NCBI GenBank assembly: GCA_021163005.1
Contig: JAGGXP010000026.1
Coordinates: 1 to 38,568 of the forward strand
Direction of reading: 5' to 3'
Source of the DNA: Candidatus Aenigmatarchaeota archaeon
GTDB lineage: Archaea > Aenigmatarchaeota > Aenigmatarchaeia > QMZP01 > JAFGSV01
DNA length: 38,568 nt
Both the position numbers and the translations under genes were made by a program. Positions 3,919-18,403 of the stretch are shown here, in pieces. The notes under the pieces were generated by a model. It was not told where the DNA came from. It searched no databases and was given only the letters and a program-made list of their open reading frames with translations. Numbering within the stretch: position 1 is the stretch's first letter; every line of letters starts with the position of its first letter.

Positions 3919-6420
3919 TCATTCTTCGTACATGTCGATGTAAAGGCTGTACGGACTGCACGAGAAGGCGCCGCTGTATCCTTCGACTCCTACACGGAAA
4001 TAGCGGGAATCGTCTGTGAAACCGTCACCATCCCACGAAAACGTGATGGTCTCCTCACTGCAACCGCTCAGCTTTGAGCTGGCAAGAAGGTTGCATGAAT
4101 CGTCATACAGATAGAGATCAAAGTCCGAGCAATATGCGCCCTGCGGAGGAATCAGCCTGATACGGACTGTGAAGGTCTCCGAGATTAAGGTGAAACCAGT
4201 GTCCTCATTCGCATAAAAACGGAAGAAGTCCTTGTCACCGGATGGATATAATTTATCGCTCCATGAAACCTCGGCATCGTTTTCATGAATGACGCCAAAA
4301 TAAGACGATTGTGAACATGCGTCGTTCGTTCCCCCGTCAGAAGCGCCACTGATGCCATCATCAACCACCCCGTTGCAGTCATCATCTATGGCGTTGCAAA
4401 CTTCATCAGCGCCGGGGCTTATGTTCGCATCGGCGTCGTTGCAGTCGCCTGCTGTGGTGGCTCTGTAAATTCCTGTGGGTGAGCAAAGGCATTTGCTGTT
4501 GCCAAACAAGCCGTATCCGTCACTGTCACCGTCATAATAATAGGTTGTGCATCCCATGGCTCCTTCTTCATCAATCTCTGCGTCACAATCATCATCGATG
4601 CCGTTGCAGGATTCCTGCGCCCCGGGGTTGATATCTGCATTCTCGTCGTTGCAGTCGCCTGGTGTGGTGGCACTGTAAATTCCTGTGGGTGAGCAAAGGC
4701 ATTTGCTGTTATAAAATGCGCCGTATCCGTCGTTGTCTGCATCAGGATAGAATACAAAGCAACCGAGTCCGTCTTCCTCATCAATTTGTCCGTCGCAGTC
4801 GTTGTCGACAGCATCGCCGCATACCTCCGCGGCACCGGGATTGATGGCAGCATCGGCGTCGTTGCAGTCATTCGATGTTGTGGATTCGCCGTCCTCGGCA
4901 TCACATGAGCCGTCCGGAGCAACCACGGTGGCACCCGTCATGGTTCCGAAGCCGTCGTGGTCAGCATCGACTATGCATATCACAGACTGGTTGCCGCAGT
5001 CCTCGTCCGTCTGTCCGTCGCAGTCGTTGTCGAGGCCGTCGCATCTGGTTTCCGTCTGCTCATAATCGGCTCCGTAGTCTGAAGGACCGCATGCAGACCA
5101 TCCTGAAACGCCTGCACAGGTCTTGGTTGAACCGTAGCAGACACCTGTCTGGAGCTCGCATGGAGGCGGAGTCAGATTGTCATCTACAGCCCCGTCGCAG
5201 TCGTCGTCCAGCCCGTTGCACGTCTCTGTCTGCGGAGTTCCTGCCACAGCATCACATTCAACACCGCTTCCGTCTGTGGTGCATACAATGTGACCGTTTG
5301 ACTGGCAGGCTCCTATGCCAACTGAGCAGACATCACCAAGTGTCGGGAAATCCTCATCAGTCTGTCCGTCGCAGTCATTGTCGAGGCCGTCGCATATCTC
5401 TGTCGACGGAGAACAGTTGCTGAGTATGAAAAGATATGCCATTGAAGTGCCGGCACTGCCTTTGGTATCCCATCCTTTCACCCACAGTGTATAGGGGAAG
5501 TTTGCTGAACATGTTCCGCCGCATACATAGCTTTCAACATCAGGCCACAGAAGCATCTCCTTGCTCCCGCTTGCATTATGTTCATAATCCCCGTCGCCGT
5601 CCAGGTCCCATACGTATTTTTCTATGCTGTCCCCGCAGCCCTCATCAGGGTCGGCGCTTTCGCTTGCATCGAGTTCCAGCGGCTCCCCTTCATTTATCAC
5701 ATAAGGTCCGCCTGCATCCATCTCCGGAGGCGAGTTGGTGGTGCAGCACTCTTCCCAGTAATGCAGCCCGACTGTCCCGAGGTCAAGTATGTCTATCTCA
5801 CCGTCCTTGTTGACATCCGCGCTTGGGTTCCAATAGGGATTCCCGTAATATGTCCCGTAAGCTATCCCGACCCTTGCAAGGTCGAATATGTCCACTATGC
5901 AGTCGCCGTTGACGTCGCCGTAGACAGGCGTCAGCGTTCTCGTTCCTTTCCGGGTGCTGTAAAAGAGGTAACTGCCGTCGGGATCCGAGAGCTTGAGTCC
6001 GGAAAGGTTCATGTAGGTCTTTCCCCATATCCCGAGCGGGCTGAAATATACACTGAAGAGTTCCCTGTCACCGCTTACGCCGTTCACTGCGGGGTTGAGT
6101 CTCGTGTTGGCGAAATATACCCTGCCGTTGGCGTTGTCTATGCTCACGCCCTTCGGATAGGATGTGGATGCTCCGTCATAATTTAAGAAGTTTCCTTCGC
6201 TTACAGCATTGGCCACGAGCACAGTGGGGTCAAAGTCGAGGACAGCCTGCGCAGCATACACGTCGTCAGTGGCGTTCAGTCTCACACCGACTGTGAAATT
6301 GACTCCGCCTGTGATGACCTCGTCAGCAGGATGGACGTAGAAGACATTTTCAGCATAAGCAGCAACAGGCATAATTATGATTAAGGAAAGAACCACAATT
6401 GGAAGCATGTGCCTGAACAT
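3919..6420 (-). CDS. secreted protein with cohesin-like domain, dockerin repeats and MopE-type metal-binding repeats
   Basis: Signal MFRHMLPIVVLSLIIIMPVAAYA; cohesin-like beta region (VNFTVGVRLNATDDVYAAQAVLDFDPTVLVA); dockerin pair (YGDVNGDCIVDIFDLARVGIAYG...ADVNKDGEIDILDLGTVGLHY); many CDGLDNDCDGQTDE motifs. Confidence 0.85.
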   Translation of the reverse strand: MFRHMLPIVVLSLIIIMPVAAYAENVFYVHPADEVITGGVNFTVGVRLNATDDVYAAQAVLDFDPTVLVANAVSEGNFLNYDGASTSYPKGVSIDNANGRVYFANTRLNPAVNGVSGDRELFSVYFSPLGIWGKTYMNLSGLKLSDPDGSYLFYSTRKGTRTLTPVYGDVNGDCIVDIFDLARVGIAYGTYYGNPYWNPSADVNKDGEIDILDLGTVGLHYWEECCTTNSPPEMDAGGPYVINEGEPLELDASESADPDEGCGDSIEKYVWDLDGDGDYEHNASGSKEMLLWPDVESYVCGGTCSANFPYTLWVKGWDTKGSAGTSMAYLFILSNCSPSTEICDGLDNDCDGQTDEDFPTLGDVCSVGIGACQSNGHIVCTTDGSGVECDAVAGTPQTETCNGLDDDCDGAVDDNLTPPPCELQTGVCYGSTKTCAGVSGWSACGPSDYGADYEQTETRCDGLDNDCDGQTDEDCGNQSVICIVDADHDGFGTMTGATVVAPDGSCDAEDGESTTSNDCNDADAAINPGAAEVCGDAVDNDCDGQIDEEDGLGCFVFYPDADNDGYGAFYNSKCLCSPTGIYSATTPGDCNDENADINPGAQESCNGIDDDCDAEIDEEGAMGCTTYYYDGDSDGYGLFGNSKCLCSPTGIYRATTAGDCNDADANISPGADEVCNAIDDDCNGVVDDGISGASDGGTNDACSQSSYFGVIHENDAEVSWSDKLYPSGDKDFFRFYANEDTGFTLISETFTVRIRLIPPQGAYCSDFDLYLYDDSCNLLASSKLSGCSEETITFSWDGDGFTDDSRYFRVGVEGYSGAFSCSPYSLYIDMYEE
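4435..4710. repeat. nucleotide-level tandem duplication (210-nt period) inside the MopE-repeat gene
   Basis: gtcgttgcagtcgcctgNtgtggtggcNctgtaaattcctgtgggtgagcaaaggcatttgctgtt occurs at 4435-4500 and 4645-4710; copies differ at two positions. Confidence 0.85.
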
Positions 6421-6554
6421 AATATCATTAAGTATTAGTGTGTAAGAATTAGGTGTAAGATTTAAATTTTTTACCAAAATGTTTTTTCGTGCCCTTCTTG
6501 TATTTTTGTGTAGCCCCTGATTAAGTTTTTAATAAACGAGCAATAATTTTATAC

Positions 6555-11968: not shown

Positions 11969-12019
11969 GAGTATTTTTCTCCTGTGTAAATTTATATAAG
12001 ATTGCCGCAAAATAATATC

Positions 12020-14008
12020 ATGAAACTCCCGATGGGGCTTGTGTTCGTCGCCCTGCTTCTCACATCAGGCTGCCTTGCGGTGAGCCCCGATGCGATAATA
12101 AAGAGCAGCCCCGTAGTGCAGGACTTTCTGAAGCAGTATCCGAATGCGGAGATAACTGCCACATTTTACGGTGCTGACGAGTTCTCCCAGATAAAAGAGC
12201 AGGTGCAGAAGGAATGTGAAAAGGAGAATGTGACTCCAAAGGATTATTACAAGGTCACGATAACCGACAAGGAAAGCGGTCTGTCTATCACCGCATGGGT
12301 TGACTGGAACAGGCAGATTGTCGAATGCGCCGTCAAGAAAGGCACGAAAGGCGAGACGATAGAGCCATATAACAAGGAAGAGATGGAAGGCAAAGGTTAT
12401 CATGTGTGTACTGATGCTGAGAAAAATGCCGAAGCCTGCACAATGGACTACAAGCCGGTGTGCGGTTACTCGAAGGACGGCGTCTGGAAGACATACAGCA
12501 ACGCATGCACTGCCTGCTCAAGCGGTCAGGTTTACAAATGGAAGGAAGGCAAATGCGATGAAAGCGTGAAATGCGAATCACATCACAAGGTACAGTGTCA
12601 TGACGGAAACGTGTACTGGTATGACTCCTGCGGAAACGCGGAGGAGAAGAAGACATACTGCGAGCATGGATGTGAGGACGGCAAGTGTGTGGAACTCAGT
12701 GATGAGGATTATGTAAAGAAATGTTATGATGGTCATGTTTACCTTTTTGATTCTGAAGGAAACAAGATAAAGAAATACAAGTACTGTGAACACGGATGCG
12801 AGAATGCTGAATGCATAGATCATGATGAGGAGAACTGCGAGGAATCAGACGACGGCTTTGACATTTACCACAAGGGCGCTGCCGAGCTTGGCGACAAGAG
12901 GCTTGAGGACCACTGCAATGATGACGGGACGCTGACAGAGAAATACTGCGAGGACAGCGAGATAAAGTGGAAGACTGTGCCGTGCCCGGCAGGCTATGTC
13001 TGCGACGGCGGGGAATGCGTGATTGCATACGGCTGTGAGGACAGCGACAAAGGCACCGGCGACGGTCTGAATTATTATGAAAAGGGCGTTACGAAAGCCA
13101 TTGTGAAGGGAGAAATAACCCAGATGGAAGACGACTACTGCGGCACAGAAGGCGCTGAAAAGGGCTACCTGAGGGAATACTACTGCGAGGGCGCCACGAT
13201 GAAGTCGAAGCTGGTCGCGTGCCCGCCGCACATGGTCTGTGACGGCGGCATGTGCGTGAATGAAACGGAAACAGCGTCTGTAGAGCTTGCGCTTACTCCG
13301 GCTTATGAAGGATGGTCAATAAAATCAGTTGATGAGGGTAACACCGTCTGTGAGAATCAATATGGTGAAGGCTGGAAATGGTTCGAATTCCATGACGATC
13401 CGAATTACGGAGGGTGGAAAACGACTGGTGTGCTTGAGCATGGGAGCGAATTCCTGGACGGCAAATCTCATGTTTATGCATGGATATGGATATATGACCA
13501 GAGTGCTGAATGCTTCAATCTTGGTGTTGACCACGGACTGACTTTCAAGGTAACTTCAGCAGGTGGAGATAGCATAGTCAACGCCGACTGCTTTGGATAT
13601 GATGAATATAATGGAAGCAGTTACTACAACCCCTCTTATTATGCTGGGGATGTGAAATGCAATCCATACGAAGGGGATACGCCATGCGATGAGACACGAA
13701 GCCTTCTATGCATAAAGAAGGTCTTCCCCGAGAGAATATCAGAATGCAACACAACTGACTATGGAGCATACTGTACACTGTTTACAGGTGACGAAATAAC
13801 CCATGACAACAATCTCAATCTGACTCTTGTCGGGGTCACCAGTGATGCTACTTCAGCTACAATCACAGTGAACGGTGAATACGAGGCACTTGGAAAGGGT
13901 GAATCCACATCGCTGAATGGTTATGTGGTAACAGTGGACTCGATAACGGTCTATCCAGCTGAAAACAAGGGAAGCGTCGGGTTGAAGGTAGAAAACCCGT
14001 CTTCTTGA
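12020..14008 (+). CDS. Cys-rich lipoprotein with Kazal-like segment and internal repeats
   Basis: MKLPMGLVFVALLLTSGCLAV lipobox; CTMDYKPVCGYSKDGVWKTYSNACTACSSG; repeated CHDGNVYWYDS..YCEHGCEDGKCV / CYDGHVYLFDS..YCEHGCENAECI. Confidence 0.85.
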   Translation: MKLPMGLVFVALLLTSGCLAVSPDAIIKSSPVVQDFLKQYPNAEITATFYGADEFSQIKEQVQKECEKENVTPKDYYKVTITDKESGLSITAWVDWNRQIVECAVKKGTKGETIEPYNKEEMEGKGYHVCTDAEKNAEACTMDYKPVCGYSKDGVWKTYSNACTACSSGQVYKWKEGKCDESVKCESHHKVQCHDGNVYWYDSCGNAEEKKTYCEHGCEDGKCVELSDEDYVKKCYDGHVYLFDSEGNKIKKYKYCEHGCENAECIDHDEENCEESDDGFDIYHKGAAELGDKRLEDHCNDDGTLTEKYCEDSEIKWKTVPCPAGYVCDGGECVIAYGCEDSDKGTGDGLNYYEKGVTKAIVKGEITQMEDDYCGTEGAEKGYLREYYCEGATMKSKLVACPPHMVCDGGMCVNETETASVELALTPAYEGWSIKSVDEGNTVCENQYGEGWKWFEFHDDPNYGGWKTTGVLEHGSEFLDGKSHVYAWIWIYDQSAECFNLGVDHGLTFKVTSAGGDSIVNADCFGYDEYNGSSYYNPSYYAGDVKCNPYEGDTPCDETRSLLCIKKVFPERISECNTTDYGAYCTLFTGDEITHDNNLNLTLVGVTSDATSATITVNGEYEALGKGESTSLNGYVVTVDSITVYPAENKGSVGLKVENPSS

Positions 14009-15465: not shown

Positions 15466-15783
15466 TCATCTGCGTTGTTGTGATAGTTTGACTATCTTGT
15501 ACTTTGTGAACTGGCTTATCCAGAAAAGGCCTATCCATGTGATAACGTAGATTATGACCATGTCCGCAAAGAGGCTGATGACATTCAAATACGCATATTC
15601 GATTCCGCTGCTGTAGCTGTAGTAGTAAATGGGAAAGCCGAATCGTTCCCAGATGCTGTAGTCCGGGAAAAGCTCCGAGAGGCTGAATGCCTGGCTGGCT
15701 GTGAAAACCGCCGCGAATATGAGCCAGATGCGCCTCTCCGGCTCGAACATGTTTCTTATCTCATGGTACAGTCGCCTTATCAT
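15466..15783 (-). CDS. small membrane protein; C-terminus probably frameshifted
   Basis: 105 aa ORF with TM segments. The +1 frame continues as NYHNNADDYIETGDYDSAWHDIMKSRQHAGNIPSPLLDKITRPENRLIRM* to 15336, one base after the corC-like stop. Confidence 0.55.
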   Translation of the reverse strand: MIRRLYHEIRNMFEPERRIWLIFAAVFTASQAFSLSELFPDYSIWERFGFPIYYYSYSSGIEYAYLNVISLFADMVIIYVITWIGLFWISQFTKYKIVKLSQQRR

Positions 15784-15827
15784 ATTACTGATTGACTTGA
15801 GTCACTTAAATAATGGACCGGAGGGGA

Positions 15828-15942
15828 TTCCCAGCTTTGCATATTCCTGTTCGTTTTCTTATTGGTTGGGGAATAATGCTTTAAGGGGGCATGCAAGCGA
15901 CTGGGAGTATTTCCCAGTGAGCTGCCGAAGCCCTCTCAAGCC
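15828..15942 (-). other. tRNA-Ala intron 2 (115 nt, T-loop position 59/60)
   Basis: BHB: outer AGGGG/CCCCT, 5' bulge AAG, central UUCA/UGGG, 3' bulge AAT, inner GCUU/AAGC; splicing gives T-loop TTCAAAT. Confidence 0.9.
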
Positions 15943-15981
15943 TTTGAACCCCTGGCCTCTCGCATGCGAAACGAGCGATCT

Positions 15982-16027
15982 TTAGCGCCCTCAGCACACT
16001 GATCTTCTCTGTTTGTGTGGCACGGAC
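15982..16027 (-). other. tRNA-Ala intron 1 (46 nt, D-loop position 20/21)
   Basis: BHB: outer GATC/GATC (D-stem), 5' bulge GAG, central AGCG/CGCU, 3' bulge AAA, inner UCC/GGG; splicing gives D-loop AGCGGAA. Confidence 0.9.
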
Positions 16028-16125
16028 TCCGCTGATCTACCGGCCCTTGACAAGTCTTTGGAACTATGTTTTTAAATCATTTTACGTTCTGACTGACGTG
16101 AACATCTGACCTGCGAAAGATATAT

Positions 16126-17055
16126 TCAGCTCCACGCCTCTGGTCCGCTCTCCTCTGTCTCGAGAATCATTCCTGTGTTGTTGTATTTTGTGATATTCCC
16201 GCATCCGAAGAGGCTTATCTCTTTGGCACTGTTGCCCGTTATTATGCAATTATGGCACTTATCTAGGAGGATTGAATCGTCGAGGTCATTTCCTTCGATC
16301 AGCATTCCTTTCTGGCCATAAAAGCATGCCGCCCCCTCGGTGACTGTTTTACTGGAAATCGTGTTGTTTAGGAATGTGAAGTTGCCGCCTGCATCAACAT
16401 CAAGCTGCGCAAAAGCTACCCTGCCAGGATTCTGCCATGTGTTTCCCTCAAGCGTGTTGTTGGCGAAATAGATTCCCCAGCTTCCTTCACTGCGCAAGGC
16501 AGACCATGCATTGTTTATGAAGCGGCAATTCGTGACATTTGGATTTTCTGCATAGTAAAAATAGATGCCGTGGCCATATGAGTTTTCTATCACGCTGCTG
16601 TCAATCACGAAATTGTCTGTCTCAACAGCCAGCCCTGCGCTTGGCTTTATGCCCCAGCCTTTCTCGCCCTGCATAATTTCTTCCATTTCTTCAGGATGCC
16701 TGCTCACGTAGCCGTCCCGGTATTCCTCACTCGAATTGGCGATTACACTGTTTCTGATTATACCGATGCTTCCTTCACGAAAAATCAGGGAATGATTATT
16801 CAGGTTTATCAGGGAGTTGACGATTATCACTTGCTCTCCAGATTCGATGACGCTGTCTCCTGCCAGCATGGCACTCATATTCTCATAGAAACCCGGAGAA
16901 ATATTGTCCAAAATGAGGGTCTCGGAATATGGCTGCCCGGGCAGACCGGAATTGATGTCACTGACTGCTCCCTTATGAAGGCAGCCGGATGTCATGATGA
17001 TTGCCAGGAAAATGATTATGGGGAGGCATTTGCGGATACCGACGAAAATGCTCAT
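16126..17055 (-). CDS. lipoprotein with right-handed beta-helix repeats
   Basis: Start at MSIFVGIRKCLPIIIFLAIIMTSGCLHKG (lipobox); beta-helix ladder such as VIDSSVIENSYGHGIYFYYAENPNVTNCRFINNAW, IEGNDLDDSILLDKCHNCIITGN. Confidence 0.8.
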   Translation of the reverse strand: MSIFVGIRKCLPIIIFLAIIMTSGCLHKGAVSDINSGLPGQPYSETLILDNISPGFYENMSAMLAGDSVIESGEQVIIVNSLINLNNHSLIFREGSIGIIRNSVIANSSEEYRDGYVSRHPEEMEEIMQGEKGWGIKPSAGLAVETDNFVIDSSVIENSYGHGIYFYYAENPNVTNCRFINNAWSALRSEGSWGIYFANNTLEGNTWQNPGRVAFAQLDVDAGGNFTFLNNTISSKTVTEGAACFYGQKGMLIEGNDLDDSILLDKCHNCIITGNSAKEISLFGCGNITKYNNTGMILETEESGPEAWS

Positions 17056-17158
17056 GATGTATAATTGCAATATGGGATTAAAATGCTGAACCCTGACATA
17101 GCACACGCACCGCTGCCTTCTGCAAATGCTTTTTAACAGGCACGACGCTATAATTAAA

Positions 17159-17722
17159 ATGGTCTGGGACATACTTGGCGGCATATTCACAATAGAGCAT
17201 CTGGTGGAGGCGTTCTGGCTTGTTCTTCCCGCATATGCAGCCAATGGGCTCGTGCCGCTGTTCGGGGGAAAGCACAGGGCAGACTTCGGGAAGAATTTCA
17301 TTGACGGGGAGCCGTTTTTGGGGTCGGGAAAGACGCTCGAGGGATTCTTCTTCGGAACGCTGGTAGGCGCCCTGATAGCGACAGTGCAGATGCTGGCGTT
17401 CCCCTACCTTCCGTGGGGGCTTTCGGAAGTCCCGCTGAACATAGTGGCAATGTCCCCGGTGCTCGGCGTCCTGCTGGGTCTCGGCGCAATGACTGGCGAC
17501 TCCGCCGGCTCTTTCATAAAAAGGCGCCTGAAGCTCAAAAGGGGAGCGGCAGCACCCGGCATAGACCAGCTGGACTTCCTTTTCGGCGCGTTTCTCTTCG
17601 CTCTCATACTTGTGAAGATTGAATTGAGCTGGGTGGTTCTTATGGCAATAGTTACGCCGATTGTGCACATCACGGCATCGTTTCTTGGTTTCAGGCTCAG
17701 GCTCAAAAGGGAACCATGGTAA
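17159..17722 (+). CDS. carS: CDP-archaeol synthase
   Basis: LVLPAYAANGLVPLFGGKHRADFGKNFIDGEPFLGSGKTLEGFFFG and GDSAGSFIKRRLKLKRGAAAPGIDQLDFLFGA match the CarS/DUF46 family. Confidence 0.92.
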   Translation: MVWDILGGIFTIEHLVEAFWLVLPAYAANGLVPLFGGKHRADFGKNFIDGEPFLGSGKTLEGFFFGTLVGALIATVQMLAFPYLPWGLSEVPLNIVAMSPVLGVLLGLGAMTGDSAGSFIKRRLKLKRGAAAPGIDQLDFLFGAFLFALILVKIELSWVVLMAIVTPIVHITASFLGFRLRLKREPW

Positions 17723-17779
17723 ATTCACTACCGTTAAGTATATATAAATTACTGATTATATACCACTTAAGTGATATGC

Positions 17780-18403
17780 ATGAATTACATGAAACCCAAG
17801 CTTGTTATGGCTCTTGGATCATCAGGCGGCTACAGGGCTTTCCTTGATATAATGGAAAATGTCGACCCGGATATGATTAAAAACGGGATGATATATCTGG
17901 TAGACCACGTGGGACCTACAGAAGAGGAAATAAGCATGTACAATGAGAAGGGATTTGATGTCATAGGAAATACTGTGCGCCACAGGGAAAAACTGAGAAG
18001 CGGTACCGTCAAATTCCAGCATGACGCCTATGAGACATACGACGAAGACAGAAGAATCATGGTCATAAGCCCAAACAGGAAGGGGCTGCACTTCGTAGAA
18101 AGAAAAGCCGACAGGAAGATGATGGGATTGTCTTATAGTGTGAAGAGCGCGCTCGATTCCGGATATGGTCAAGATATGATGACACTTTTCCTCAGCGGTG
18201 CAGGCGACGACGGATGTGGTGTCATCGGAGACTTGAGAGAGAGCGGTTCAAAAGTCATCATACAGGAGCCCGGCACGGCCATAATCGGCGAGCTTCTGTG
18301 GAATGCACTTTACAGAAGCATGTATTCTGACATTCCGCCCATGGTGATTGAGCCGAAAAAGATATCAGGGGAGATAAACGACTTTCTTTTTGAGAAACTA
18401 TAA
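17780..18403 (+). CDS. stand-alone CheB-like methylesterase domain protein
   Basis: LVMALGSSGGYRAFLDIM (Ser motif), YLVDHVGPTEEEI (His motif), LFLSGAGDDGCGVIGDLRESGSKVIIQEPGTA (Asp/GxDG motif); no receiver domain. Confidence 0.75.
   Translation: MNYMKPKLVMALGSSGGYRAFLDIMENVDPDMIKNGMIYLVDHVGPTEEEISMYNEKGFDVIGNTVRHREKLRSGTVKFQHDAYETYDEDRRIMVISPNRKGLHFVERKADRKMMGLSYSVKSALDSGYGQDMMTLFLSGAGDDGCGVIGDLRESGSKVIIQEPGTAIIGELLWNALYRSMYSDIPPMVIEPKKISGEINDFLFEKL

Follow-up and report, generated by a model that had tools for sequence, protein, structure and literature searches.

Among Archaea, tRNA genes with several introns have been described in the Thermoproteales, in Pyrobaculum and its relatives (Sugahara 2008, as cited in PMC4033280 and PMC4090602), for which position 59/60 is a known intron site (PMC4090602), and similar introns in different tRNAs have been read as the product of intron transposition (Fujishima 2010, as cited in PMC4033280). 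The published extreme is Pyrobaculum calidifontis, whose 46 genes contain 71 introns (PMC8450103). In ARMAN/Micrarchaeota, multiple-intron tRNAs go together with an epsilon2 endonuclease (PMC4033280), and in the Asgard Atabeyarchaeia and Freyarchaeia 92-95% of the tRNA genes are interrupted, often at non-canonical sites and more than half of them by several introns (PMC11291895). Caldiarchaeum subterraneum carries tRNA fragments beside an intact gene, and intron gain there has been ascribed to the integration of a mobile element (PMC3293823).

Here we report that a tRNA-Ala(CGC) gene within a 38,568-nt stretch of DNA (the window) from a Candidatus Aenigmatarchaeota archaeon is, taken alone, a further instance of this known multi-intron kind. 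What is new is its setting: in this DPANN genome, introns of repeated families break up nearly every tRNA gene that was recognised, most often within the T-loop, and the literature searched contained no account of such a pattern for the Aenigmatarchaeota. As in the Thermoproteales, genes hold two or three bulge-helix-bulge (BHB) introns at non-canonical sites, and similar introns are found in different tRNAs. Unlike that group, the host belongs to the Aenigmatarchaeota (DPANN) and encodes a predicted epsilon2-type rather than an alpha-beta endonuclease, and T-loop introns are present in about three-quarters of the genes found. The pairing of an epsilon2-type endonuclease with multiple-intron tRNAs is shared with the Micrarchaeota, and its association with intron-rich tRNAs is here extended to a second DPANN phylum.

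An alanine tRNA gene in three exons

The gene spans 233 nt on the minus strand (15814..16046), in the gap between open reading frames at 15466-15783 and 16126-17301. Read from 16046 to 15814, it consists of GGGCCGGTAGATCAGCGGA, 46 nt, AGATCGCTCGTTTCGCATGCGAGAGGCCAGGGGTTCAAA, 115 nt and TCCCCTCCGGTCCA. Exon 1 (16028..16046, minus strand; 19 nt) holds the acceptor 5' strand, U8-A9, the D-stem 5' strand and the D-loop to position 20; exon 2 (15943..15981, minus strand; 39 nt) continues with the D-stem 3' strand, the anticodon arm, the variable loop, the T-stem 5' strand and the T-loop to position 59; and exon 3 (15814..15827, minus strand; 14 nt) supplies position 60, the T-stem 3' strand and the acceptor 3' strand with U70 and A73. 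Joined, these exons give a 72-nt molecule whose fold is a perfect cloverleaf (-29.1 kcal/mol) and which has the invariant positions of an archaeal tRNA together with G3:U70, A73 and an alanine anticodon, the identity elements of an alanine tRNA. The anticodon CGC (15966..15968, minus strand) lies in an uninterrupted 7-nt loop with no intron at 37/38, and CCA is absent from the encoded sequence. A TATA-like element, TTTAAAAA (16069..16076, minus strand), precedes the mature 5' end by 30 nt, and similar A+T boxes are found ahead of the intronless copies of the gene in the congeners G003 and G001. Together with a contiguous orthologue at the syntenic position in G003 (see below), the cloverleaf and identity elements establish 15814-16046 as a real alanine tRNA gene, far above chance.

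The earlier note had read a minus-strand tRNA-Ala here from the letters alone, with 46 nt inserted at 20/21 and 115 nt at 59/60, an intact anticodon loop, CGC and G3:U70. Each of these elements is present in the spliced 72-mer, and an intron-aware scan that chose its cut sites unaided returned the same two junctions. The note's suspicion that finders limited to anticodon-loop introns would miss the gene also proved sound: ARAGORN, one of the checks it proposed, reports no tRNA in the unspliced window, with introns permitted or not, and calls the spliced product tRNA-Ala(cgc). Its suggestion of an intron-rich or DPANN archaeal host fits the actual source. Introns of this type are part of the default search of tRNAscan-SE 2.0 (PMC8450103), and some current tools might therefore detect the gene. 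Rfam yields no match to the unspliced locus at the gathering score, and relaxing the threshold to E≤10 brings up nothing but snoRNA and lncRNA matches at chance level.

Splice motifs and endonucleases

Both introns end in BHB motifs, defined here as two 3-nt bulges that flank a central helix of 4 bp, the cut (^) falling after the second bulge nucleotide; both central helices are paired at four of four positions. Intron 1 (15982..16027, minus strand; 46 nt) follows A20 in the D-loop, at position 20/21. Its outer helix is the D-stem (GATC/GATC), its central helix pairs AGCG (16033-16030) with CGCT (15987-15984), and its bulges are GA^G (16029-16027) and AA^A (15983-15981). Intron 2 (15828..15942, minus strand; 115 nt) follows A59 in the T-loop, at position 59/60, and uses the T-stem (AGGGG/CCCCT) as its outer helix; TTCA (15948-15945) pairs with TGGG (15833-15830), two of these pairs being G-U, the bulges are AA^G (15944-15942) and AA^T (15829-15827), and an intron stem GCTT/AAGC comes next. 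When the exons were held fixed, the introns shuffled and the permitted registers scored, motifs this good arose by chance with P 0.00087 for intron 1 and 0.00025 for intron 2. We rejected a group I or group II self-splicing origin, as Rfam has no such match for the introns up to E≤10, and likewise a box C/D guide RNA within intron 2, for which matches were at chance level only.

The source genome (G000; a draft of 945 kb in 43 contigs, 91% complete, 49% G+C) encodes a three-unit epsilon-type EndA of 398 aa, which would provide the epsilon2-type endonuclease suited to non-canonical intron sites. It aligns over residues 14-398 with the ARMAN-2 enzyme (4fz2, 9w2k; E 1.4e-87) and retains the catalytic Tyr, His and Lys as well as the substrate-loop Tyr-Lys required for cleavage (PMC12397907). 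EndA-domain reading frames of about this size are present in most genomes of the order, and the splicing-endonuclease relatives from named genomes are nearly all from Candidatus Aenigmatarchaeota. A second, alpha-type EndA of 188 aa (G000:C1:4652-4924; L020:1234-1800) adjoins tRNA-Asn and tRNA-Phe genes. It has Ala at the catalytic-Lys position (SIRARM, compared with SVRKKL in M. jannaschii), as do the five relatives checked (SIRARM in L229, L230, L226 and L231; SIRATM in L232), and is therefore probably not catalytic by itself.

Nearly all recognised tRNA genes are interrupted

The intron-aware scan recognised 27 tRNA genes in the source genome, a lower bound, as at least ten further loci hold tRNA pieces that it did not assemble; the proportions given here refer to the recognised set. 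It found none in the reversed sequence of this genome or of a congener (G002; 742 kb, single contig), and scan sets of 24 and 26 genes were all accepted by ARAGORN after splicing. Interruptions affect 25 of the 27 genes, with 40 introns in total (about 1.5 per gene), so tRNA-Ala(CGC) is no oddity in its own genome. The interrupted fraction resembles the 92-95% of the Asgard lineages (PMC11291895), and the number per gene matches the P. calidifontis extreme (PMC8450103). By site, the introns lie at 59/60 (n=17), 58/59 (n=3), 37/38 (n=12) and in the D-loop (n=5), with one each at 30/31, ~44/45 and 53/54, D-loop and variable-loop numbering being approximate; a T-loop intron (58/59 or 59/60) is present in 20 of the 27 recognised genes. 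Allowing T-loop introns of up to 1500 nt added a single low-scoring candidate, probably spurious. In G002, 14 of the 18 recognised genes are interrupted. A second alanine gene of the source genome, tRNA-Ala(UGC), is split at both sites used in tRNA-Ala(CGC), 20/21 and 59/60, a further point in favour of the reading proposed below.

With introns permitted, ARAGORN reports seven tRNA genes in the source genome, and at least two of these differ in anticodon from the intron-aware result. Set against at least 27 genes, this means that arguments about completeness or host dependence based on tRNA counts can fail badly for DPANN genomes of this kind.

A family of T-loop introns

Intron 2 has the same start as T-loop introns in seven further tRNA genes of the genome, all at 59/60, which makes a family of eight genes. 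Six of the seven others also share the same kind of end, with lengths of 176-500 nt, while the seventh runs off its contig. The family signature is a start GGCTC/T after A59, an internal GCCCCCTTAAAGCATTATTCCCC and an end AGCTGRRA before T60, and the alanine intron has all of these. Within it, a segment common to other T-loop introns, with the core GCATGCCCCCTTAAAGCATTATTCCCC (15868..15899, minus strand), shows 91% identity over 32 nt with the introns of Gly-GCC and Ser-CGA and 100% identity over 25 nt with that of Trp-CCA. The family stem GCUC/GAGC has become GCUU/AAGC in the alanine gene, a compensatory change, and no other member of the family is as diverged as intron 2. Such related introns escape standard gene finders and are apparently spreading, which adds the Aenigmatarchaeota to the lineages in which intron spread is recognised.

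Gain of the introns and competing explanations

In a member of the same genus (G003), the orthologous tRNA-Ala(CGC) gene is one uninterrupted 72-nt block (L122:2226-2297). It lies within a gene order common to both genomes (p19573, p17078, the tRNA, the open reading frame at 15466, a CNNM protein and a Kazal protein); 59 of 72 exon positions are identical, and the differences in stems are largely compensated. An intact, intronless copy (66/72) is present as well in G001, which is assigned to this genus. The assembly of G001, at 1.9 Mb and with 81 tRNA matches of which several lie on short contigs, is possibly mixed, so the case for presence and absence within the genus rests mainly on G003. 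The G001 assembly also has about 35 tRNA genes, mostly intronless, packed into 3.5 kb (G001:C74:144597-148045), possibly a mobile element or contamination. No tRNA-Ala gene was recognised in G002, an absence that is uninformative in an assembly with N gaps and 72% completeness.

Judged from the two congeners G003 and G001, both introns most probably entered the gene after its lineage had separated from that of G003. The best of the alternatives is that the gene is functional and spliced as proposed here but inherited its introns from an ancestor, G003 and G001 having lost them. Other alanine tRNA genes lend this some weight: an intron at 20/21 or 59/60 is found across the order in Ala(GGC) of G003, G004, G019 and G036 and in Ala(UGC) of G000 and G016. 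In both congeners examined, however, the CGC gene is uninterrupted, so that loss would require exact removal of both introns in each of them, or once in a common ancestor. The intron 2 family, moreover, recurs at 59/60 in unrelated tRNAs of the source genome, as recent spread predicts. We therefore regard ancestral introns as unlikely.

A much less probable explanation is that the locus is a tRNA pseudogene broken by two unspliced insertions, GCG codons being read by tRNA-Ala(UGC). A tRNA-Ala(UGC) gene is indeed present, and wobble pairing would in principle let a UGC anticodon read GCG. Against this, a BHB motif marks the exact ends of each insertion, the exons retain all stems and identity elements, and 12 long open reading frames of the window contain 90 GCG codons. 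Furthermore, nearly all other tRNA genes recognised in the genome, including the Trp, His, Tyr and Cys genes, each detected a single time, are interrupted in the same way, so insertions that remained unspliced would be lethal. That three exons merely resemble a tRNA by chance, given the many ways of placing two introns, is virtually inconceivable, as the same search has no hits in reversed G000 and G002 and the contiguous orthologue at the syntenic position in G003 refutes it.

In light of these comparisons, the sequence evidence makes it very probable that the locus is a functional tRNA-Ala(CGC) gene whose two introns are spliced by EndA, and that these most likely entered it after the split from G003 as part of a genome-wide spread of BHB introns. 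The pre-tRNA would be transcribed from the TATA promoter and fold into its two BHB motifs, with the D-stem and T-stem as outer helices; the epsilon2-type endonuclease would cut them at 20/21 and 59/60, a tRNA ligase would join the three exons, and CCA would be added afterwards. Transcription, cleavage and ligation, as well as gain rather than loss, are steps that we infer from sequence. BHB introns would have spread between the RNA genes of the lineage, mostly into the T-loop at 59/60, as proposed for the Thermoproteales (PMC4033280, PMC4090602), by either reverse splicing at the RNA level or insertion at the DNA level.

A second family of hairpin elements in tRNA and rRNA genes

A second family (R1) has a hairpin core in which both partners have changed at 8 of the 12 pairs; its compensatory cells number 56, compared with 16.2 +/- 2.9 in shuffles and at most 9 in slid controls. 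Copies of R1 are found in tRNA introns in the D-loop and at 37/38 and 59/60, and also lie next to tRNA genes or inside rRNA genes. Its profile has 64 matches in G000 and G002 and none in reversed sequence; as the alignment was built from these two genomes, their scores follow by construction, and matches in other genera are independent. It was detected in 44 of 146 genomes at E≤0.001 (relatives, the source genome included) and in 27 of 160 genomes of the phylum at E≤1e-6. The distribution is patchy, with many copies in G000 and none in G001 and G004. As a source of the tRNA-Ala(CGC) introns R1 was rejected, its best match in the window having E 0.62.

Within rRNA genes, R1 lies inside 16S and apparently 23S (G000:C23:11973-12536 and 17449-17835; G002:436113). 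A 68-nt insertion in the 16S gene of G000, at ATTAGAT|ACCCCC, has a complete BHB motif and is cleanly absent in G002. For four other 16S insertions that differ between these genomes the BHB check failed or the junctions are uncertain, and so this is the only one that we claim as a 16S BHB intron. Syntenic presence and absence, together with an intron family common to tRNA and 16S genes, make the movement of BHB introns in Archaea directly testable.

More tentatively, it is possible that Aenigmatarchaeota carry small non-coding mobile elements with fixed sites in the D-, anticodon and T-loops of tRNA genes, in 16S and probably in 23S, which would be kept through BHB-dependent removal from RNA by the epsilon2 enzyme. 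Such splicing-dependent selfish elements would sometimes leave duplicated tRNA ends, and may share the T-loop and 3'-end sites of viral integrases.

Additional observations

At Lys, Arg, Ile and Thr tRNA genes, a 5' fragment of the tRNA (1 to ~15) is followed by an element and then by the complete gene (G000:C3:21590-21740, C1:12680-13100, C29:17690-17960 and C4:10200-10420), in tandem at the Lys gene. These loci resemble the outcome of integration with target duplication. They are like the arrangement in Caldiarchaeum, and unlike it the elements are short and related sequences themselves serve as tRNA introns. A duplicated tRNA-Leu 3' end follows a T-loop element at G000:C13:10440-10820, and an orphan tRNA-Trp-like 3' end (CCATAGACCCCA) is found in repeat DNA at G000:C21:6385-7100. 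Tandem copies of a 40-nt hairpin unit make up parts of two anticodon-loop introns, about four in Thr(UGU) (G000:C4:10396-10707) and about two in Val(GAC) (G000:C18:13618-13790). The hairpin element also lies, on the opposite strand, in a gene that by eye is RNase P RNA-like (GAGGAA.GTCC; G000:C23:20323-20374, G002:237358-237413).

The window also encodes a large protein (3919-6477) with six MopE-type metal-binding motifs as well as dockerin and cohesin domains, and a protein (12002-14008) with a Kazal-type inhibitor domain, which surprised us in a small DPANN genome.
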